A DNA stretch of 64,000 nt from Streptomyces sp. NBC_01351 (GTDB lineage Bacteria > Actinomycetota > Actinomycetes > Streptomycetales > Streptomycetaceae). The stretch spans positions 6,763,501-6,827,500 of the forward strand of contig NZ_CP108356.1 of assembly GCF_036237315.1 (NCBI RefSeq), written 5' to 3'. The position numbers and the translations under genes are program-made. A model generated the notes under the pieces. It saw only the letters and a list, made by a program, of their open reading frames with translations, made no database searches and was not told where the DNA came from. Of this stretch, positions 4,589-47,248 are shown piece after piece. Numbering within the stretch: the stretch's first letter is position 1; each line of letters begins with the position of its first letter.

Positions 4589-5515
4589 GTGGACATCTCA
4601 CAAGCCGGCCCGTCCCGGCGCGCGTTACTGGCACTCGGCACGGGGACCGTACTGTTCACCGGCCTGGCCACGGCCGCCGGCGGCCGGGCACACGCCGAGG
4701 AACCCGGGGCAGCGGTGACCCGGCGGCTGCGGGACCTGGAGCGGGAGCACTCCGCCCGGCTGGGCGTGTTCGCCCGCCACATGTGCACGGGCCGGACGGT
4801 GGTGTACCGCGCGGACGAGCGGTTCCCGATCTGTTCGGTCTTCAAGGGGCTGGCCGCCGCGGCCGTGCTGCGGGACCTCGACGAGGACGGCGAGTTCCTC
4901 GCCAAGCGGATCCGGTACACGCAGGAGTACGTCGAGAAGTCGGGGTACGGCCCGGAAACCGGCAAGCCCGCGAACGTGGCCAACGGCATGACGGTCGAGG
5001 CCCTGTGCTCCGCCTCCGTCAGCGCGAGCGACAACGCCGCGGCCAACCTGCTCCTCGAGGAACTGGGCGGCCCCACGGCGATCACCCGGTTCAGCCGCTC
5101 GCTCGGCGACCGGATCACCCGGCTGGACCGCTACGAACCCGAACTGAACTCGGCGGAACCGGGGCGGGTGACCGACACCACCAGCCCCCGGGCCATCGGG
5201 AAGACCTACGCGCGCCTGCTCCTCGGCGACGCGCTGCCCTCCCGGGACCGCGGGCTGCTGACCGACTGGCTGATCGCGAACACGACGAACACCGAGCGGT
5301 TCAAGGCCGGGCTCCCGGCGGACTGGCTCCTGGCGGACAAGACCGGTGGCGGGCACGAGTACGGGGTGGCCAATGACGTGGGTGTGGTGTGGCCGCCGGA
5401 CGGCACCCCGATCGTGATGGCGGTCCTGACGACCAAGCCGGGCTCGCCGACCGGCCCCCGGGACAGCGCGCTGGTCGCGAAGACCGCCCGGCTGCTGGCC
5501 TCGGCCCTCACCTGA
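4589..5515 (+). CDS. bla: Class A beta-lactamase (secreted serine hydrolase)
   Basis: Hydrolyses beta-lactam rings through an acyl-serine intermediate. The 308-residue precursor has a twin-arginine-type signal (PSRRALLALG followed by a hydrophobic stretch and AHA), so Tat export is likely. All class A motifs are present: SVFK (Ser70-x-x-Lys), SDN (130 loop), EPELN (Glu166 omega loop) and KTG (234-236). The GTG at 4589 follows a GAGGAG at 4578-4583. A TAGCGT -10-like hexamer near 4543 may be its promoter. No blaI/blaR-type regulator adjoins it. It ends 3 bases before the convergent HAD fragment. Confidence 0.93.
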   Translation: MDISQAGPSRRALLALGTGTVLFTGLATAAGGRAHAEEPGAAVTRRLRDLEREHSARLGVFARHMCTGRTVVYRADERFPICSVFKGLAAAAVLRDLDEDGEFLAKRIRYTQEYVEKSGYGPETGKPANVANGMTVEALCSASVSASDNAAANLLLEELGGPTAITRFSRSLGDRITRLDRYEPELNSAEPGRVTDTTSPRAIGKTYARLLLGDALPSRDRGLLTDWLIANTTNTERFKAGLPADWLLADKTGGGHEYGVANDVGVVWPPDGTPIVMAVLTTKPGSPTGPRDSALVAKTARLLASALT

Positions 5516-5518
5516 TCC

Positions 5519-5996
5519 TCACGCCGCCCAGTCGCGCAGCGCGTCGAAGTCGGGCCGGGTCAGTCCGATCCGCTCGTCGATCCGCATGAGCAGGGTCCGT
5601 GCCGGGTGACGCTGGTCGACGTACTCGCGGTCCATGCCCGTGATGTCGTCGTCGATCCACGCGAACGGCCGGGCGCCCGCGTACTCCAGGACGTACTGGG
5701 TCTTCCAGAACGTGCCGCGCGGCGCCCGGCCGTGCATCACCGGCCAGTCGATGTAGGGGAGCCTCGGCAGGCCCAGGTGCGGCCCTATCCAGTCGTTCGC
5801 CTCGTCCTTCCACGTCGTGGCCCAGACGAGTTCGTACGCGTCCGCGAGCGCGAGCAGCTCCGCGCCGTGGGCGTGATTCAGCCAGACCCGCAGGGGCTTC
5901 GCGCTCTCGGCACCGGTCCAGCCCGTCGGACGCATCCGGTGGGTGGTGTAGCCCTCGGGGCGGCGCTGCGGCTTGGCCGCGTAGGGGTTCAGCGGT
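5519..5996 (-). pseudogene. HAD-type hydrolase, 3' part, cut off from its start by an insertion
   Basis: This fragment encodes LNPYAAKPQRRPEGYTTHRM through to the natural end DFDALRDWAA, about 158 residues. It resembles the small HAD proteins of the 'Swiss Army Knife RNA repair' group. The nucleophile-bearing N-terminus is missing here and lies 8.1 kb away at 14134-14171. The open frame continues 194 bases into the insertion, giving the foreign N-terminus MKVPRADVDR. Joining 14171-14134 to 5990-5519 restores a continuous 170-codon frame. The second acidic cluster, FAWIDDD, is intact. Unless the element excises, the product should be inactive. Confidence 0.9.
5991..5996. repeat. Left core copy of the element, AGCGGT
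   Basis: The HAD gene sequence (minus strand GAACCCCTACGCG) ends exactly here. The hexamer matches the right-end copy, so it is either the crossover core or a 6-bp duplication. Just inside, ACGTCCG (6015-6021) pairs with CGGACGT (6033-6039) and may be part of the recombinase-binding end. Confidence 0.8.
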
Positions 5997-6164
5997 CTTA
6001 TATGGGCATGAGACACGTCCGACCGATTCTCGCGGACGTTGAATGCATGGGTAGAGACCTGGACGGCGCCGGTCTGTGGGAAGTTGTCGTCGGAGCCGGG
6101 ATGCTCGGTCGGAGGCCGTCGGTGTTTCGTCTTGCAGCTCGCCTTCACATGCTGGCGCCGCCTG

Positions 6165-6629
6165 TCAACGTCGGCCCGAGGAACCTTCACCCTCCCGCAG
6201 TAGCCACTCCCTCACCGTCGGGACGCTGTCCAGGAGCTGACTGACCTGCATGCCTTCTTCGCGCGAGGTCACTCTCAACAGCGGGGTGAAGTCGTCGGGA
6301 AGCAGGTCCAGCAGGCTCATCACGCGATCTCCCGAACGTAGCGTGATCAACAGCTCGCACCGGAGCTGACGCGGGATGCCCGGGCGATGGGACAAGCTGT
6401 TCCACAGGGCTGGCCACAGGTAGTGGGTTCCATCGGGCGCCGCATTCGCTCGTACCCACGCCGGGTCCAACCGCTGGTTAAGGCTGAGTTCACACGCGCG
6501 CTCCTCCAGCCTGAGCAGCGAGGCCGTATCGATGACCTTCACCTCACGAGGCAGCGGCTGATCCGAGTCCATCGCCCCATGCTGCCCGACAGCACCCCAT
6601 AGCGGGCAGCCGACCCCGGTGAAGCTCAT
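6165..6629 (-). CDS. Unrecognised fifth gene of the recombinase operon
   Basis: A 154-residue protein of unknown function. Its ATG overlaps the stop of the TnpC-like gene as ATGA (6626-6629), so it is translationally coupled and part of the recombinase operon. An internal ATG (MDSDQPLPREVK, about residue 20) is an alternative start. Visible features are a mixed alpha/beta-looking acidic protein with LRLEERACEL, RQLRCELLITLRSGDRVMSL and an Arg/Ser-rich tail. There is no signal peptide, no membrane segment and no cysteine cluster. Its position suggests an accessory or regulatory role in transposition. I do not recognise the family. Confidence 0.7.
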   Translation of the reverse strand: MSFTGVGCPLWGAVGQHGAMDSDQPLPREVKVIDTASLLRLEERACELSLNQRLDPAWVRANAAPDGTHYLWPALWNSLSHRPGIPRQLRCELLITLRSGDRVMSLLDLLPDDFTPLLRVTSREEGMQVSQLLDSVPTVREWLLREGEGSSGRR

Positions 6630-7111
6630 TCCGTTAGGAGTTCTTCGGTCGATGGCGATGTGTTCCCTACCGCCCCGTGATGGGTGCGCGCCCGTGCCGG
6701 AAGCGTGCGGACGTTCCCACCGCCTTGGAGGGCTGCTCGGAGGCGCTGGATCTCGTCGTGCTGCTCGACGAGCCGGGACAGCGCCAGCATCTTGAACTCG
6801 GACGCTTCGGACGCCTCCTGCTTCATTCGGGAGAGCCGCCCCTTCAAGGCGGCTACCTCGGCTTTGAGGCGGTCAATCTGGGCGAGGCGGGGATCTGGCT
6901 CGCCGGTGACCTCTCGGGCCCTGCCAAGCCGGCTCTCGAACTCCTGCTTGATGTGGGGGTAGGTGCGGTACAGCGTCGCCCGGGGGACAGCCGCGAGGAT
7001 GCTGAGGGACTGGATGTCGCACCGCAGGCCCTCGGGGACGTCCCCGGCCATGAGCTGATCCATGGCGGCTTTCAAACGACTCTCAGCGTTGGCGTGGCGG
7101 TCACTGGGCAC
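6626..7111 (-). CDS. TnpC-like transposition accessory protein (DUF6262 type)
   Basis: A 161-residue protein. The N-terminal half, LSILAAVPRATLYRTYPHIK, reads like a helix-turn-helix. The second half, about residues 75-135, is a predicted coiled coil (IDRLKAEVAALKGRLSRM and LVEQHDEIQRLRAAL). This layout matches the small TnpC proteins that accompany Tn554-type tyrosine recombinases and help set element orientation. The GTG at 7111 overlaps the stop of the third recombinase gene by 11 bases (GTGCCCAGTGA), so translation is coupled. It is coupled again to the next gene by ATGA. Confidence 0.78.
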   Translation of the reverse strand: MPSDRHANAESRLKAAMDQLMAGDVPEGLRCDIQSLSILAAVPRATLYRTYPHIKQEFESRLGRAREVTGEPDPRLAQIDRLKAEVAALKGRLSRMKQEASEASEFKMLALSRLVEQHDEIQRLRAALQGGGNVRTLPARARTHHGAVGNTSPSTEELLTE

Positions 7112-9266
7112 TGGATGCCTCCTCGGTGGCTGCGGCGGCGTCGATGGATTCCACGATCCGCATGGATCGCTCGTAGGTCTGCTGGGCGCGTTGACGCTCC
7201 GGCGCCGACAGCCGGGGATTGCCAAGGAACACAGCCCGGGTGTTCTCGGCGTGGTCGGCCCACGCCTGCCGGTGCTGGGAGTGATGGGTGGCTTGGGGGC
7301 AGCGAGCGGAGTCGCACATGCCGAGCAGAGGCTCGCTGGCATTCGGAGTGCCGGCCAAGGCGAGGCACAAGGCCTTGGCGGGGTCGGTGAACCAGCAGTA
7401 GTTCGCCACGCCGATGTGAAGGGTCTTTGCCTTGCTCTTGAGGAGCTTCTCCACGCGACGGTCGTCGGCGACGGTGGCGGGGCCAGGGTCGTGTCCGGCG
7501 AGGGAGCGGTCGACGCTCTGGAAAGCGGCGACCAGGTCGCGTGCACCTCGGCCCGAGGGGAGGACGCCTTGCTGGTAGTCGTGGTAGGCGGCAACCGTGA
7601 GCCGCGTGTGTTCGAGCTCCTCTTCGGCCTGGACCTCGGCGAGGAACGCGGCCTGGTGGCCGCCCGGCCGGGCCGTGTAGCCCTCGGTAGTGGCCACCGA
7701 GACGTGCTTCAAGTGCCACTTTGTGGCCAGGAGGCCGTGGGGACGTTGGGCGATGGACAGAGCGAGGGTACGACGCAGGGCCCGCGGGTGGACCGGTCCA
7801 TCCGGGATCGGGGTGAGGCCGAGACGCTGTCCGAGGGGACCGTTGATCCAGTCCCGGAGCGCGGTGTACCGGTTGGCGGAATTGTTGGCGACGGGGAAGA
7901 TCAGGTCCCCGAGGTCCGTGCCGCCAAGGGCTTCGGCGGCTCCTACAGCGCGGTGTACATCCTCGATGACCACCCATGAGTCGGGCACTCCGCCGAACTT
8001 CTCACCTTTGACGCGGCGGGAGTCCAGCCAGTGACGGGAGCCGTAGGCGCGGTCTTCGCTGCGGTGGCAGCCATGGGTGAGTTCGGCCAGCTCTGAGGTC
8101 CGCATGCCAGACAGCGCCGAGGTGAGGTAGTAGGCAGCGGAAGTGACGGCGAACACCATGCTGTCCAGGGCGAAGTGATTCATAGGGAGGGCCCAGGGGA
8201 CGGGCTCTTCATCATCGGCGCGTGGCACCGCCGCTGCGTCACGGCACCACGCGTTCTCGGTGCCACAGGCAGCGACCCATGCCGCCAACTGAGGCCTGAG
8301 CCGCTCCAGATCCCGTTGGGTGGAGGAGAGCGCAAGGAAGTCCTTGGTGAAGGACGTGTGGGCGAGCGTGAGGAGGGGATCACCGATGTCCCAACCCGAG
8401 TTGAGTCTGCGGGCGATGCCGGAGGGGGCAGCACGAGGTGCCGGGATTCCGGCTGCGATACGCCGCTCGATCTCGGCGATGACGAGCGGGTGGTGTTCGA
8501 CGCGGAGCGACGATCGGATGCCGCCCCGGCGGACCATGGTCTGCCGGGCGTGAGTGGCTTCCCTGACGAGATGGGGGCTGATCGTGTCGACGAGGTAAGA
8601 GGCGCCGGCGAGGAGCGGCCGCAGGATGTCGTCTGGGACGGCGGGGGTCTGGTTGGTGGCGGGACGCTGGTATCCAGCGACCTGGGCGGCGGTGCGGTCG
8701 CCCCATGGGCGGAAGCCAGTCGGGTAGGCGTCGGGCAGTAGCGGTGCGTATGCGGCCAGGGCCTGCGTGGTCAGAACGAATCCTGCGATGGTGCCGGGGG
8801 TGACCGGCTGGTTGGGGTCGGTGCGGCTGACGGAGACAACGGGCAGGTAGGCGTCACAGTGCTGCTGGTGGATCTGTCGGAGGCCGGTGAGTCCCGCCTC
8901 AGTGAGGTGGTTGAACCAGGCTGTGAGGCGGACGAGTTCGTGTCGGAGCGTTTGCAGGGCGAGAGGGGAGCGGTATGCCTGTGGGAGTACAGCAACGGAC
9001 GGGTGGGTGGGCACAAGGCGGGCCATCAAGTAGGTGCGCGCGACCGCTCGCCAGGTCGGGTTGGTGACCTGGGTGAAGTCCAGGATCTGCTCGCTGCGGG
9101 GCCAGGACGCTGGGGCGTCGGCGACGCAGGTCAGGTCCCAGATGTCCTGGTCGAAGTGGGGGCGGCGAGTACCGGGCCGAGTGCGGTACCCAGCAGTCTG
9201 GAGGATGTCCAAGCCGGTGAAGGGACTGTGACCGGCGCCGGCGGTCAGAGCGTCGGATCTGGTCAC
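7101..9266 (-). CDS. Tyrosine recombinase, third of the trio (721 aa)
   Basis: Cuts and rejoins DNA through a phosphotyrosine. All catalytic positions are visible: Arg in ALSGMRTSELAEL, Lys in RVKGEKFG, HxxR in HPRALRR, and the C-terminal HLKHVSVATTEGY with the His and Tyr nucleophile. The long N-terminal part (about 400 residues) carries the DNA-binding region. The C-terminal extension has a Cys/His cluster (MCDSARCPQATHH) that may be a zinc finger. The GTG at 9266 overlaps the preceding recombinase stop as GTGA. Confidence 0.88.
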   Translation of the reverse strand: MTRSDALTAGAGHSPFTGLDILQTAGYRTRPGTRRPHFDQDIWDLTCVADAPASWPRSEQILDFTQVTNPTWRAVARTYLMARLVPTHPSVAVLPQAYRSPLALQTLRHELVRLTAWFNHLTEAGLTGLRQIHQQHCDAYLPVVSVSRTDPNQPVTPGTIAGFVLTTQALAAYAPLLPDAYPTGFRPWGDRTAAQVAGYQRPATNQTPAVPDDILRPLLAGASYLVDTISPHLVREATHARQTMVRRGGIRSSLRVEHHPLVIAEIERRIAAGIPAPRAAPSGIARRLNSGWDIGDPLLTLAHTSFTKDFLALSSTQRDLERLRPQLAAWVAACGTENAWCRDAAAVPRADDEEPVPWALPMNHFALDSMVFAVTSAAYYLTSALSGMRTSELAELTHGCHRSEDRAYGSRHWLDSRRVKGEKFGGVPDSWVVIEDVHRAVGAAEALGGTDLGDLIFPVANNSANRYTALRDWINGPLGQRLGLTPIPDGPVHPRALRRTLALSIAQRPHGLLATKWHLKHVSVATTEGYTARPGGHQAAFLAEVQAEEELEHTRLTVAAYHDYQQGVLPSGRGARDLVAAFQSVDRSLAGHDPGPATVADDRRVEKLLKSKAKTLHIGVANYCWFTDPAKALCLALAGTPNASEPLLGMCDSARCPQATHHSQHRQAWADHAENTRAVFLGNPRLSAPERQRAQQTYERSMRIVESIDAAAATEEASSAQ

Positions 9267-10939
9267 GGGATCTCCTCCGGCTGCAGGACCGCGAACACGT
9301 TTTCGGTGGCGGCCCGGATCGCTGTCGTGCTGAAACGGGGCAGCAGGTCGGTGCTGAGCCTGTCGGCGTAGGGGCCGAAGATGGCCAGGAACTGCGCGTT
9401 CGTCATGTGCCGTTCCTGGTCGGCGAAATAGCGCTGGAGGCGCAGCAGGTTGGGCAGGTGCCGGGGGGTGAACACGGCGAGCGGGCATAACAGGCACACC
9501 CAGGGACGGGCTGGGCAGGCGGTTCCGGATGGGGCGTGGGGGCTGTTGTAGAGACTGGCGCAGGATGCGACGAACACGTCCTGCTCGCCGGCCAGTAGGC
9601 GCTGGATGGCGTCGCCGTCGAGTCCGGCGTCCGCAACGAGGCGGGGGAAGTCGGTAGCGAACCGGGCGGCGTCTTGGCTGGTGACGATGACCGGCGGCGC
9701 GGCCTTGCGGCGGATGTCGCGCTGGGCTTCCTCGATGACTCCCTCGATGGCCTCCACCTGGGCGGGGGTGTGGTGGTGGAGGTAGTGGTCGCCTTCGATC
9801 GCCGGGGTGTGGTTGGGGTCGATGGTGGTGCGTCCTGTCCAGGCGGAGCGGTCGCGCCTGTGATGGCAGGTCGTGCGGATCCGGCCGCCGTGCGGGGTCA
9901 TGGGCTGGCCGTTGTCGTCGGTCAGGCCGACGGTTTTCGCCCACTTGATCCGCTGCCATGGGGTACGGGGATGCCCGGACAACGCCGTGCCGTTGTAGTT
10001 GATCCACATGGAGTCGGAGAGTTCTCCGGCGTGCTCGCGAAGAGGCGCGGAGTGGGAGAGCCACTGGTCCAGGAGCCGTACGGTGGGGCCGCGCAGGTTG
10101 AGGGCTTCGCGGGCGGTCCGACCCTTGCGATAGGACAGCAGGCCTGTGGCGGGGCCGGAGTGTGTGAAGTCGGGTACGGACAGGGTGTCGATACCGTCGG
10201 GCACAGCGCCGGTCAGCATGGCCAGCCGGAGGTTGTAGACGAGTGCCGTATACCCGGATGGGAACAGGGCGTCGCGAATCTCCAGGACCGCGGTTGTGAT
10301 CGCCCAAGGAGCTCCGGGGATCATCGCGCGGATCGCGCGAACCGTCACCGGGCCAGTTCTACGGATCAGCCAGGCCAGGTTGTCCCGGGTGATGCCATGG
10401 GCGATCGGGTCGGCCCCGCGTTCAGCGGATTCCAGAGCCTTGAGGTGATCCTGCCAGGCGGTGTCGATGGCGGTGCGGGCGGCTTGATCGATGCGCCGCC
10501 ATTCTGCGTCGCTGTACGGCCGGTGAGGGGTGGACCCGGCCTGCTGGTTGATCGGCCTTCCGTCGAGGTGGGCTCGGATGCTGGCGTGGAGGGTGCCGCC
10601 GTCGGCGAGGAAGCCATTGAGGGTGATGCGGCTGTGCCGCTCGAATGTGAATCCGAACTTCAGCCAGTAGGACGTGAGTTGTGTCGCAGTGAGACCGGAG
10701 AGAGTGCCGGTGAAACCGGTCTCGTGCAGGTAGCGGGCGAGGTGTCGGGCACACCGGACAGCGTGCCGGGCATCGCGGTAGGTGCGGATCGGGCCGTTGG
10801 GATGGGCGGCTGCGGTAAGTCCTTGGGCGAGGTCGCCAGCTAGTACCGAGTCGGGCAGCTCGTGAAGCGTGCCGAGGTAAGGCCGCTGACCCGGGAGCGT
10901 GTATTGAACGGCGAGCGGTTGTCGGATTTCAGCGGGCAT
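9263..10939 (-). CDS. Tyrosine recombinase-like protein, second of the trio (558 aa), catalytic Arg I apparently lost
   Basis: The protein aligns by eye with tyrosine recombinases: Lys in SYRKGRTARE, HxxR as TPHGGRIR, and DPNHTPAIEGDHYL supplying the second His and the Tyr. At the usual TGxR motif it reads LTGAVPDGIDTL, so the first catalytic arginine appears replaced by valine. It may be an impaired or structural partner of the other two. The C-terminus has a cysteine cluster (CPARPWVCLLCP). The ATG at 10939 overlaps the first recombinase stop by 11 bases (ATGCCCGCTGA). Confidence 0.83.
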   Translation of the reverse strand: MPAEIRQPLAVQYTLPGQRPYLGTLHELPDSVLAGDLAQGLTAAAHPNGPIRTYRDARHAVRCARHLARYLHETGFTGTLSGLTATQLTSYWLKFGFTFERHSRITLNGFLADGGTLHASIRAHLDGRPINQQAGSTPHRPYSDAEWRRIDQAARTAIDTAWQDHLKALESAERGADPIAHGITRDNLAWLIRRTGPVTVRAIRAMIPGAPWAITTAVLEIRDALFPSGYTALVYNLRLAMLTGAVPDGIDTLSVPDFTHSGPATGLLSYRKGRTAREALNLRGPTVRLLDQWLSHSAPLREHAGELSDSMWINYNGTALSGHPRTPWQRIKWAKTVGLTDDNGQPMTPHGGRIRTTCHHRRDRSAWTGRTTIDPNHTPAIEGDHYLHHHTPAQVEAIEGVIEEAQRDIRRKAAPPVIVTSQDAARFATDFPRLVADAGLDGDAIQRLLAGEQDVFVASCASLYNSPHAPSGTACPARPWVCLLCPLAVFTPRHLPNLLRLQRYFADQERHMTNAQFLAIFGPYADRLSTDLLPRFSTTAIRAATENVFAVLQPEEIP

Positions 10940-12365
10940 GGGTGTCCTGGAATTCTGCGTCGGCTTCCCGGCGGGCGACCGGGTTGGGGTCGGCGTCCGC
11001 GTATGCCTGGCGGAAGATTCTCTGGGTGTCCAGGAGATGGAGGTACACCTGTGTGGTGGCGACGCTGGCATGGCCGAGGAGGTCCCGCAGGATCAGCAGA
11101 GGATCGGCCTTGGTGAGGTAGAGAGCCATGGCGTTGTCATCGCCGGTGTCGAGGACTAGGCGGGCTGCCTGCTGGTAGTAGCCGCGCACCAGCTTTTCCA
11201 GGGTGGCCATAGCCATCGTGTGGCGTGTCATGTGGGGGTGGACGTGCGGATACGCGGGTTCCCACCGATCGCGGATGCGGGCGGAGGTCCGGCGGAGGGT
11301 GGTCGCCCAGTCCAGGAACGGCGAGCCGTCGGACTGGACGGCGAGGAGGGCACTTCCGCCGCCGGGGCCGACCAGGCGGAGCCGTTCGGCCGGAGTCAGC
11401 AGGTGCCAGCGGCGGTAGGTGCCGTTGAGGTAGGCGCCCTCGTACGTCGGGTCTTCTACGTGGAGGGCATGGGTGGGGCGCCATCGCGAGCCGTCCACGT
11501 GGGTGGCCCGCTCCAGCGTCGTGTAGTCGTGAACGCGGGCCAAGGCGTCGTACTCCACCCAGGTCTGTCGACCCTTGCTGCCCTTCGTGGTCGGAGGCGC
11601 GAGCGGCAACGGGATGGGGACGGCGGTGCGCTGGCGGGGCAGTGGAGGGATCTCCCACGGAGTGAGAAGCCGCCATTCTCGAAGCCGCAGACCGGTGGAG
11701 ACCGCAAGCGAGCCGCCGGCGGCGTTCCTGCCGGTCTCGCGGCCCCGAAACGTGGCGTCGGGTTCGCCGCCCGGGTCGTTGCCGGCGAGAGCGTTGATCA
11801 GCAGCTCGGAGTACGGCCGCTCCAGGTACTTGCGCGTTGCGTGCCGTCTGGCACCCCGCACGGTGGCGAGGTTACGGGCGGACTCCATGCGTACGCCGTC
11901 AGGGCGCAGGTAGGAGCCCATGGCGTAGGAGAACGGAGCATCGTGGCAGTGCCCCTCGTTCACCGCCCACTGGTAGAACGCCGCGATGGTCTTGACCGCA
12001 AGGTTCCAACTGGACGCTCCAAGCCGGACTTCCAGTGGGCCTGACAAGCGATGCTCAGCGTAGAGGGACAGGCCGTCGCGCAGCAGTTGACGGTTGGAGA
12101 ACAGGGCGATGTCGTGGGTGGAGAGGAACTCGGCCCAGGGCTTGAGTTGTAGAGCGTATGTCTTCCACGAGTTCTCGGCGGGTGCTCCGCTGATCGGCAG
12201 CTCTCGCAGCCAGCGATTGATGACTGTCACTGGTCGGGGGCCGTTCTCGTCTTCGAAGCGGAGATCGTCGTCCACGAGTACTGGCATGCCGTCGCGGTTG
12301 AGCGGCGGCGACGAGAGGTCCCAATCCTCCCAGCCGGCTTTGGAGAAGCGGAAGAGAATCACCAT
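10929..12365 (-). CDS. Tyrosine recombinase, first of the trio (478 aa)
   Basis: The lead gene of the recombinase operon. The N-terminal SAM-like DNA-binding part (NSWKTYALQLKPWAEFL) precedes a complete catalytic domain: Arg in STGLRLREWRLL, Lys in TTKGSKGRQ, HxxR in HPHMTRH, and LLGHASVATTQVYLHLL with the second His and Tyr nucleophile. I chose the ATG at 12365 (MVILFRFSKAG). A TTG at 12386 is also in frame, and neither has a clear ribosome site. Gene order, overlaps and trio arrangement match recombinase-in-trio and Tn554-type modules. Confidence 0.88.
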   Translation of the reverse strand: MVILFRFSKAGWEDWDLSSPPLNRDGMPVLVDDDLRFEDENGPRPVTVINRWLRELPISGAPAENSWKTYALQLKPWAEFLSTHDIALFSNRQLLRDGLSLYAEHRLSGPLEVRLGASSWNLAVKTIAAFYQWAVNEGHCHDAPFSYAMGSYLRPDGVRMESARNLATVRGARRHATRKYLERPYSELLINALAGNDPGGEPDATFRGRETGRNAAGGSLAVSTGLRLREWRLLTPWEIPPLPRQRTAVPIPLPLAPPTTKGSKGRQTWVEYDALARVHDYTTLERATHVDGSRWRPTHALHVEDPTYEGAYLNGTYRRWHLLTPAERLRLVGPGGGSALLAVQSDGSPFLDWATTLRRTSARIRDRWEPAYPHVHPHMTRHTMAMATLEKLVRGYYQQAARLVLDTGDDNAMALYLTKADPLLILRDLLGHASVATTQVYLHLLDTQRIFRQAYADADPNPVARREADAEFQDTHAR

Positions 12366-12410
12366 TGCACGGTAGGTGAGACGCAATCAGCTGTGCCCGA
12401 TATTTGTGAA

Positions 12411-12450
12411 ACTGCCAGTCTCATGACGATTAATCAGATAATCCGGCAGT
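12411..12450. promoter_or_regulatory. AT-rich inverted repeat upstream of the recombinase operon
   Basis: ACTGCC (12411-12416) and GGCAGT (12445-12450) flank an unusually AT-rich core that contains the palindrome GATTAATC (12428-12435). It lies 46-85 bases upstream of the first recombinase start. In a high-GC genome this is a likely promoter or operator for the operon. No exact -35/-10 pair could be fixed. The rest of 12366-12568 shows nothing else. Confidence 0.45.
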
Positions 12451-12568
12451 AAGGGTGTCTCGCGACTGGGGGCCGTTGGGAATGCCGGGTGAGAGTCGCA
12501 GCTGGAGATGGCCGCGCATCGTCACTTGGTTCGGCGGACCCGGCTGTGAGGCTGTCCGCGGCTTTCGC

Positions 12569-13954
12569 CTACAGGCTGCCTTTTGATTCGTATGTCCAGA
12601 CGTTGCCTACGTTGCGTCCGCCCCGGCGCATCACGGTGCCGAGGATGGCTGTGAGGTCGTCCTCGACCTCGGCCAGGAGCTCTGTGCCGAAGACGCACAG
12701 GGACTCCTCCCATGGGTGCCAGAAGGTACCCATGCGCAGGTCACGGGTGAGGAGCTTGTAGTACTCGCCTTCCCAGCATGCGGCGCCCGGCCAGGCCGGC
12801 TGCCCTGGCGCGCCGACACGTGCTGGGTCGAAACGGTAGCCCTGATGCCACCAGCTGACCGAGTAGAGATGCTCGCCGGGGCTGACGCGGGCGCGCAGGC
12901 CGCGCTCGACGGTGTCCTGAAGGCGTGCGACCCGGTGTTCATCCGGGAGGTCTCGCATGAGGCCGTAGGTGTGACGAGTGTCGGTGACGTCCCCGACGTG
13001 CCAGGTAACGGAGTCGGGTGGCTCCTCAATAGCCGGGTAGTAGGTGTAACTGGGTTTGAAGGCGAAGCGGGCTTTGAATTCGTCGCACAGCGCCTCGTGC
13101 TCCCGGTCGTCGAGCAACATGGATACGGGGCGGGTGCTGGCGGGTAGCGTGCCGACCGACGTCCAGGCATAGATGCGTACGGTCGAAATGGCGCGGAAGC
13201 CGGCTGCGAGAAGGGCGTCCAAGATCGGGCCGGTCGGCGCCTCGGCCGTGAGGTAGCGGCGGTCCGGCGCCGCACCGGTGCCCATGTGAAGGCTGCGGCT
13301 GTTGCGGGCCCAGCGGACCCAGTGGTGCACGAACTCTGCGTGGGGGCCGGTCACCCCCCGAACGGCTGCGAACTCTGTCGACCCGACGGCCTCCGCCCAG
13401 CCTGCGCCGACGATCCTGGTCTCCGTTTCCAGGACCTGGACGTTCAGCCCCCAGTTCAGCAAGTTCCCGTGGTCCTCGCGGATGTCCGCCAGCCCGCGTA
13501 TGTACGGACCGCAGGCCTCGACCAGACGGTCCAACTCCTGAAGTCGACGGTAGCCGTAGCCGAGCCTGCGCACATGCATGCCCCTCGCCGGTGCCACCTC
13601 AGCCGCGAGGTCGTCGAGCTCGGCAATGAGCAGCGTCCGCGCGGGTCCGACAGTCCTGAAACCGGCGGCGCGCAGAGGCTCGTCCATCTGGATCGGGTCG
13701 TGGCTGTACGCCCGCCACTCGGCACGCTCTCGCCGGGCGGCGAACGCCTCTTGCTGCCGTCGGATCAGCCCGGTGACTTCTGTCGGGTCGGTCCGGTCGG
13801 GCAAGGGGGAGTGCCGAACCGTGCCGTGCGTGCCGTAGTGAGTCCTAATTACCGGTCCGTCCCGCTCGACCACGGCCCCTACCGGGGCCCGCTCCGGGAC
13901 ATGCCCCCGCACCTGCTCGTCATACGCTGCCAGCAGCGCGTCCACCCCATTCAT
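12569..13954 (-). CDS. GNAT-type acetyltransferase fused to a DUF2716 domain (element cargo)
   Basis: A 461-residue protein. Residues about 60-270 resemble a GNAT acetyltransferase (EPLRAAGFRTVGPARTLLIA, then ILDALLAAGFRAISTVRIYAW). Residues about 280-455 carry the DUF2716 pattern, with the paired motifs WHVGDVTDTRHTY, LYSVSWWHQGYRF and FWHPWEESLCVFG. The substrate is unknown. It is transcribed in the same direction as the recombinases, about 200 bases upstream of them, and is the only gene of the element not obviously tied to transposition. The ATG at 13954 has a weak ribosome site. Confidence 0.7.
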   Translation of the reverse strand: MNGVDALLAAYDEQVRGHVPERAPVGAVVERDGPVIRTHYGTHGTVRHSPLPDRTDPTEVTGLIRRQQEAFAARRERAEWRAYSHDPIQMDEPLRAAGFRTVGPARTLLIAELDDLAAEVAPARGMHVRRLGYGYRRLQELDRLVEACGPYIRGLADIREDHGNLLNWGLNVQVLETETRIVGAGWAEAVGSTEFAAVRGVTGPHAEFVHHWVRWARNSRSLHMGTGAAPDRRYLTAEAPTGPILDALLAAGFRAISTVRIYAWTSVGTLPASTRPVSMLLDDREHEALCDEFKARFAFKPSYTYYPAIEEPPDSVTWHVGDVTDTRHTYGLMRDLPDEHRVARLQDTVERGLRARVSPGEHLYSVSWWHQGYRFDPARVGAPGQPAWPGAACWEGEYYKLLTRDLRMGTFWHPWEESLCVFGTELLAEVEDDLTAILGTVMRRGGRNVGNVWTYESKGSL

Positions 13955-14114
13955 CAGGCTGTCGGCCTGGCGGATACCTGTCCGCGGCCTTGGTGATTAT
14001 CGGGACCATCGCCGACGCCATCCAGTCATTTAACGGTCACCTCGTGGCGTGAGGCATGCCTGCAGGCGCCCTGTAGCGGGGGTGGATGCGACTGGTGGGT
14101 GAGACAGCGAGACT

Positions 14115-14171
14115 TCACGGAACCGCATAGATAAGCGGTCCGTCGACATCGATCAGCAGCAGGGGCTTCAT
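14115..14171 (-). pseudogene. HAD-type hydrolase, 5' stub carrying the DVDG nucleophile motif
   Basis: The ATG at 14171 begins MKPLLLIDVDGPL, the classic HAD motif I with the nucleophilic Asp. The native sequence stops at the AGCGGT at 14134. Beyond it the frame reads five foreign codons (IYAVP) and a TGA at 14115-14117, giving an 18-residue peptide. The remainder of the gene is at 5519-5990. The join is in frame: 38 + 472 = 510 bases, or 170 codons with stop. Confidence 0.92.
14134..14139. repeat. Right core copy of the element, AGCGGT
   Basis: Identical to 5991-5996 and in the same orientation. Host HAD sequence resumes immediately to the right (CCGTCGACATC). Reading inward the right end begins TATCTATGCGG, which shares only short stretches with the left end (CTTATATGGGC), so there is no long terminal inverted repeat. 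Confidence 0.8.
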
Positions 14172-44086: not shown

Positions 44087-44158
44087 GGGCGATTAGCTCA
44101 GTGGGAGAGCACTTCGTTCACACCGAAGGGGTCACTGGTTCGAACCCAGTATCGCCCA
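44087..44158 (+). tRNA. tRNA-Val (CAC), copy 1
   Basis: Starts GGGCGATTAGCTCAGTGGGA, with anticodon loop TTCACAC in TTCG.../CGAA arms, T-arm GGTTCGAACCC and acceptor ATCGCCC plus A. The length is 72 bases. A TAATGT hexamer (44068-44073) is a likely -10. Confidence 0.96.
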
Positions 44159-44164
44159 CCCGGA

Positions 44165-47169: not shown

Positions 47170-47241
47170 GGGCGATTAGCTCAGCGGGAGAGCACTTCGT
47201 TCACACCGAAGGGGTCACTGGTTCGATCCCAGTATCGCCCA
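47170..47241 (+). tRNA. tRNA-Val (CAC), copy 2
   Basis: The 72-base sequence differs from copy 1 at only two places, a C in the D-arm (CAGCGGG for CAGTGGG) and a T in the T-loop region (GATCCC for GAACCC). The anticodon loop TTCACAC is the same. Confidence 0.96.
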
Positions 47242-47248
47242 CCGGGAC

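Follow-up and report, generated by a model that had tools for sequence, protein, structure and literature searches.

Circular forms without a matching empty site have been reported for SEs (strand-biased circularizing integrative elements). According to the rule published for them, the hexamer of the target is found at attL and that of the donor at attR (PMC9345347), and Tn554, which uses one fixed target, also carries a 6-bp footprint (PMC10214605). In the 2023 survey (Idola et al., PMC10214605), SE synteny blocks were placed in Gammaproteobacteria only and the Tfp/GinC protein was described as having no RHRY motif. Here we describe an element of about 8.1 kb from Streptomyces sp. NBC_01351, which lies in a 64,000-nucleotide stretch of contig NZ_CP108356.1 (positions 6,763,501 to 6,827,500; the window) and splits a gene for a HAD-like protein. 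It is very probably a site-specific insertion of the SE/GInt/Tn554 type, and its relatives place four-gene SE-like elements in Actinomycetota, beyond the Gammaproteobacteria of that survey.

Removal of 8,143 bp in silico restores an open frame of 510 bp (169 residues plus a stop codon), which starts with MKPLLLIDVDGPLNPYAAKPQRRPEGY and reads MKPLLLIDVDGPLNPYAAKP after rejoining. The insertion lies in the codons G-P-L, right after the DxD motif. Matches to the 3′ part of the gene were found in 27 of the 61 genomes searched, counting that of the window itself. In 27 of 28 related loci (L004-L031) there is an open frame that spans 130 residues or more and contains D[VI][DA]GPLN[PH]; the remaining locus, L026, has the motif and an early stop. 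In eight loci (L004-L011) the uninterrupted gene is flanked by argH on one side and by TetR and MFS genes on the other, as in the window; these loci supply the empty-site comparison proposed with the original prediction. The closest homologue by identity (74%, genome G012) is itself occupied at the HAD site, so the comparison with empty sites depends on more distant relatives, the best five of which (L004-L008) show 56-64% identity to the 3′ part. The host genome (G000) gave one match at E ≤ 0.001, and no second HAD copy able to replace the split one was found in it. Thus, the stub, the 3′ part and their join are as described in the original prediction, its argument that the in-frame repair is not due to chance agrees with the 27 open frames, and the predicted insertion, target and orientation are borne out by the syntenic empty sites and by three further occupied sites described below.

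The product of the split gene is HAD-like, as judged by Pfam and by fold. All six intact orthologues scanned matched the Pfam family HAD_SAK_2, three of them (L005, L006 and L008) above the curated cutoff; the 3′ piece of the window scored under it. The predicted structure of the orthologue L004 (mean predicted local distance difference test score, pLDDT, 92) matched mostly HAD-type phosphatases in the PDB, with a best E value of 4e-3 and none reaching 1e-3. Both results uphold the naming of a HAD gene as the target. Sequence-profile searches of the PDB with the HAD, IntB or Tfp proteins gave nothing useful. In all four HAD insertions the right end of the element is in frame with what remains of the HAD gene, and a GTG or ATG codon lies upstream (SHA.I.PLNPY; by eye for L062 and L063). 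A shortened HAD protein that lacks the catalytic motif might be produced from this right-end frame.

The element carries an operon with overlapping starts, which encodes IntA-like, Tfp-like, IntB-like and Srap/TnpC-like proteins and then a small protein (Table 1). The IntA-like protein has a complete catalytic set (R234, K268, H385, R388, H439 and Y448 in the numbering of the 485-aa frame), and R389, K420, R498, H521 and Y530 are present in the IntB-like protein. The Tfp-like protein, which has no Pfam match, is without Arg I and has a Cys-rich C-terminus (602-aa frame). Its residues K316, R397, H421 and Y430 are invariant across 35 actinobacterial sequences, and K316, H421 and Y430 remain so when three proteobacterial sequences are added. 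The top PDB matches of its AlphaFold2 model (mean pLDDT 74, predicted template modelling score 0.51) were XerH (E 7e-5) and Cre. A relative of the Srap/TnpC-like protein in locus L052 matched DUF6262 below the cutoff.

In the genome collection, 251 stretches fit the search patterns; 150 of these encode a relative, from which the best 80 were retained. The four genes are complete and in order in 71 of these 80 loci; in eight no srap-like gene was found and the order is intA-tfp-intB, and one has intA and tfp. Wherever the organism is named, the titles are actinobacterial, including a metagenome-assembled genome (L101) titled Rhodococcus and filed under Cyanobacteriota. Outside this set, a Serratia plasmid has four genes of similar size in identical order, the three recombinase genes are present on a Sphingobium plasmid with the small fourth gene not annotated, and the gene set of an Erwinia plasmid is interrupted. 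In Streptomyces violaceusniger (G079) there are three copies of the element, which differ by 0-1 mismatches and 3-9 gap columns in 6,938 aligned columns. Among the matches listed, the short contigs L068, L070, L099, L115 and L119 start at an element terminus or three bases before it, a pattern that a multi-copy element would produce by breaking up assemblies.

The two junctions of the window have 7 bp, AGCGGTC, in common (5991-5997 and 14134-14140). For this reason the join is unambiguous but the position of the crossover is ambiguous, and the statement that both ends were defined to the base proves too strong. Relatives set the exchanged hexamer at GCGGTC (5992-5997 and 14135-14140): the first core base differs between the two ends of L066, so the exchanged stretch includes a base outside the hexamer first proposed, AGCGGT. 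The direct repeat is 7 bp long rather than 6, and the hexamer was placed one base off. The T that follows the core is identical in target and element and hence uninformative. The element consists of 8,137 bp plus one 6-bp core. On the gene strand its IntA side reads core-TTATCTATGCGG and its other side CATGCCCATATAA-core, with a clear terminal inversion limited to the outermost TTAT; imperfect inverted repeats of the SE type (13-19 bp) were not found in the window. In all six elements checked, TGTCTC[AG] occurs no more than 80 bp from the left end, and five of them (the exception is L062) have TGTCTC[AG] or CGTCTC[AG] close to the right end, with 0-2 copies elsewhere in the element on either strand.

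The exchanged six bases are GACCGC in the window, GCCCGC in L034 (the G012 locus) and L062, CGCGCG or CGAGCG in G079, and GCGGCC and CGTGCG in L066. When nine elements were compared, the end hexamers were equal in the window, L034, L062, L050 and L051 and unequal in L052, L066, L112 and L113. Eight further loci, with ends located by motif and chosen for box II at the junction rather than for their hexamers, gave unequal pairs in L073, L090, L095, L117, L118, L124 and L138 and an equal pair in L104. The equal pairs would fit a transposase that duplicates its target, with the repeat as a 6-7-bp target-site duplication. Since the end hexamers differ in four of the nine and seven of the eight elements, at four of six positions in L066, this duplication is excluded; judged by L066, L095, L112, L113 and others, it is already refuted for the family. 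All recombination enzymes recognised in the element are, moreover, of the tyrosine-recombinase type, and a target duplication is barely credible.

The direction of the exchange can be read from L066 (Glycomyces), which interrupts an 86-aa gene that is intact in Natronoglycomyces and Streptosporangium plasmids. Its left hexamer, GCGGCC, agrees with the intact genes at five and three of six bases, respectively, and its right hexamer, CGTGCG, at three and none, so the left one was read as that of the target and the right one as brought in from elsewhere. The serine-recombinase sites L148 and L164, both empty, have CGTGCG as their own hexamer. In L052, the IntA side has CGAGCG and the far side has CGCGCG, which the other two G079 copies also have. 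Retention of the target's hexamer on the IntA side, with a foreign one placed opposite, is supported by one case, L066, and L052 is consistent with it; the L066 hexamers agree with the rule published for SEs. At the core position of 27 HAD orthologues there are 11 different hexamers, and yet the pairs of the HAD clade are all equal, which suggests that insertion may favour matching hexamers.

Insertions at the HAD site are also present in three more genomes of this genus: G012, ISL-87 (L062) and S. griseoruber (L063). The recombinase module of G012 shares 93.7% DNA identity with that of the window, has the identical position and carries a protein kinase gene as cargo, with no match to the DUF2716 cargo of the window. 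The latter is present in the ISL-87 element, which also has the small gene in the opposite orientation (14431-14889 of L062), its only match among the 80 loci. In S. griseoruber the right junction alone was located, and intB is disrupted. Descent of all four from a single old insertion, passed on with the gene, would explain the shared site, the neighbours common to the window, L034 and L062, and the single clade formed by the HAD-site elements. At fourfold sites, however, the window and G012 are more similar in the element (999/1147, 87.1%) than in the host flanks (617/792, 77.9%; p 1e-7), though this does not hold for window and ISL-87 (748/1033, 72.4%, versus 614/797, 77.0%; p 0.03) or for G012 and ISL-87 (811/1065, 76.2%, versus 663/835, 79.4%; p 0.10). 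Transfer of the element was therefore inferred for the window/G012 pair, short of proof, in a comparison where individual flanking genes range from 58 to 89% and which codon bias or gene conversion could blur, the clear signal coming from one pair alone. The HAD codon base within the core also varies between the insertions (A, C, C and G). Taken together, these comparisons disfavour a single ancestral insertion, which we regard as improbable, and repeated use of the site is the better account.

Other members of the family were found in genes of recombinases. The G079 copies are in serine-recombinase genes: an uninterrupted YARVST frame runs across the joined site for L050 and L051, and the L051 target piece matches the Pfam Resolvase domain. 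The L052 target was assigned by similarity of its flank to that of L050 and to empty relatives, the longest joined frame being another one. In Rhodococcus koreensis, L112 and L113, which were compared as near-identical copies and not chosen by target, have their ends within box II (PHQLRH / HTLATQ...) of two genes for tyrosine recombinases. Their hexamers are GGCATA/GGCACA and GGCACA/GGCATA, and the site of L112 recurs at L109. A search for further box II junctions, made after box II had been noticed and thus selected, covered 67 loci, those in which IntA gave a hit, and omitted 13 of the 80. A candidate left end was located in 29 of these 67 and box II was present there in nine; the ends of most relatives at 40% identity were not found, and boundaries from pairwise alignment gave no ends for L074/L075.

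Six of ten left junction pieces match Phage_integrase, all six ending at profile position 134, and six of ten right pieces match it, all six starting at 134; the other four on each side gave no match. The host gene of L117 is IntB-like and is broken on both sides at residue 516 of the Sphingobium protein, the right-hand piece of L138 resembles IntB, and the left piece of L124 weakly resembles IntA. At L117 and L138, SE-like elements lie in box II of IntB-like recombinase genes that belong to related elements. On a tree of Tfp proteins with 83 rows, 22 have target labels (four HAD, three serine recombinase, 14 tyrosine recombinase and one other; those of L070 and L129 are based on the right end). 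These labels require the minimum possible number of changes, which indicates that, within the labelled rows, the choice of target follows descent.

These sites tentatively suggest that the actinobacterial four-gene SE-like family uses conserved active-site codons as attachment sites, namely the HAD motif I region, YARVST of serine recombinases and box II of tyrosine recombinases, including IntB-like genes of related elements. Each insertion would disable an enzyme, often the recombinase of a rival element, and the carried hexamer would record the previous site; we consider this reading slightly less likely than not. Several points weigh against the site-specific SE/Tn554-type explanation of the element. 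Ends, and hence targets, were located for a minority of the best 80 loci, and the direction of the hexamer rule is based on L066 and, by inference, on L052. All three two-ended elements of the HAD clade have identical end hexamers, which makes the donor-hexamer rule invisible in the window. The IntB-like protein has Arg (R495) where box II normally has its first His, and residues 410-434 of the Tfp model, with H421 and Y430 inside, have pLDDT below 50. Finally, the likeness to SEs and GInts was drawn from motifs, fold and gene order.

In the proposed mechanism, IntA, IntB, the Tfp-like partner and the TnpC/Srap-like protein would act at short arms (TTAT...ATAA) flanking a 6-bp crossover. A circular copy would most likely carry the 6 bp found at the old site's IntA side and recombine with a conserved 6-bp target, whose own hexamer would remain on the IntA side while the carried hexamer would go to the other end. 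Which protein cuts, the circular intermediate, and that the copy in the window may still be active, we infer. Movement by copy-out rather than by excision is somewhat favoured. An ordinary element resembling integrative and conjugative or integrative and mobilizable elements, cut and pasted by its integrases and leaving an empty site, would be compatible with everything except copy-out. Tyrosine recombinases with a short core suit such cut-and-paste equally well, and empty sites have been detected for some GInts (Bardaji et al., PMC5385486). However, the gene order is that of SEs, no transfer gene was recognised among the six element proteins scanned, and one genome (G079) has three near-identical copies, so we consider an ordinary integrative element unlikely.

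If the SE-like mechanism is correct, the IntA-distal hexamer can reveal the previous site of an element, which offers a genomic test of the donor-hexamer rule. If targeting of active sites is general, it would explain attachment sites that are stable across species and do not involve tRNA genes, and would suggest that mobile elements switch off other mobile elements. In the literature searched, which covers few subscription journals, neither a four-gene form in Actinobacteria nor active-site targeting was described.

Table 1. Positions of the element, its ends and the split gene in the window
Feature	Position	Strand	Remarks
3′ part of split HAD gene	5519..5991	-	target bases beyond the core, NPYAAKP... 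up to the stop
In-frame fusion of right end and HAD remnant	5519-6190 (L003: 1478-1993)	-	candidate frame
attR core hexamer	5992..5997		GCGGTC (gene strand GACCGC); IntA-distal; would be donor-derived in the SE/Tn554 model
Right-end arm	5998..6012		TTATATGGGCATGAG
GAGACA	6010-6015		right-end copy of the TGTCTC motif
Small gene	6165..6629	-	function not assigned; start overlaps srap-like stop
srap/tnpC-like gene	6626..7111	-	161 aa; no Pfam match at cutoff
IntB-like gene	7101..9266	-	large tyrosine recombinase, 721 aa; Pfam match below cutoff
Tfp/GinC-like gene	9263..10939	-	open frame runs on to 11071; tyrosine-recombinase fold
IntA-like gene	10929..12365	-	tyrosine recombinase; 485-aa frame runs on to 12386
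Cargo gene	12569..13954	-	461 aa, C-terminal DUF2716; ahead of the operon
Left-end arm	14120..14134		gene strand TTATCTATGCGGTTC
attL core hexamer	14135..14140		GCGGTC (gene strand GACCGC); IntA-proximal; would be the target's own in the SE/Tn554 model
5′ stub of HAD gene	14141..14171	-	upstream of the core; MKPLLLIDVD plus one base

Between argH and the HAD remnant the window also contains a gene for a class A β-lactamase-like protein (4592-5515, plus strand; PF13354, E 7e-42), which had no tblastn match in L003-L011, L034, L062 or L063. Elsewhere in the window, two tRNA-Val(cac) genes (44087-44160 and 47170-47243, 3.1 kb apart) were considered as the ends of another element and rejected, the copies not being identical.

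Four groups of described elements can be compared with this one. RIT (recombinase in trio) elements also have three overlapping recombinase-type genes, but their recombinases are 315-410 aa long and all have the catalytic Tyr, and their terminal repeats measure 34 bp (quoted in PMC10214605); here the proteins have about 478, 558 and 721 aa, a fourth gene is present and the terminal repeats are far shorter. Tn554 and the actinobacterial Tn554-like elements (Van Houdt et al. 2012, PMC3414803) resemble this family in the combination of a long and an ordinary tyrosine recombinase, mostly with a TnpC-like third protein, and in their hosts, Actinobacteria including Streptomyces. They have two recombinase genes, whereas here a third, Tfp-like gene lies between the two. 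RIT and plain Tn554 were rejected by gene number and size.

GInts, genomic islands with three integrases (Bardaji et al. 2017, PMC5385486), resemble it in having three integrase-type genes and a small gene of the helix-loop-helix/TnpC-like kind, one integrase without the first Arg, variable cargo and a proposed 6-nt staggered exchange. They differ in their imperfect flanking direct repeats of 10-17 nt, compared with 7 bp in the window, and several of them lie at the end of ssb and leave its product unaltered, whereas here the coding frame is broken beside a catalytic motif. From SEs the element differs in its actinobacterial host, in its shorter terminal inverted repeats and in a Tfp-like protein that retains Lys, the box II Arg, His and Tyr. 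It shares with them the overlapping operon intA-tfp-intB-srap, a long IntB and a partner without Arg I (PMC10214605, PMC9345347), and its family, like the SEs, has the 6-bp hexamer rule and few conserved target genes, which in SEs are bcp and insJ.

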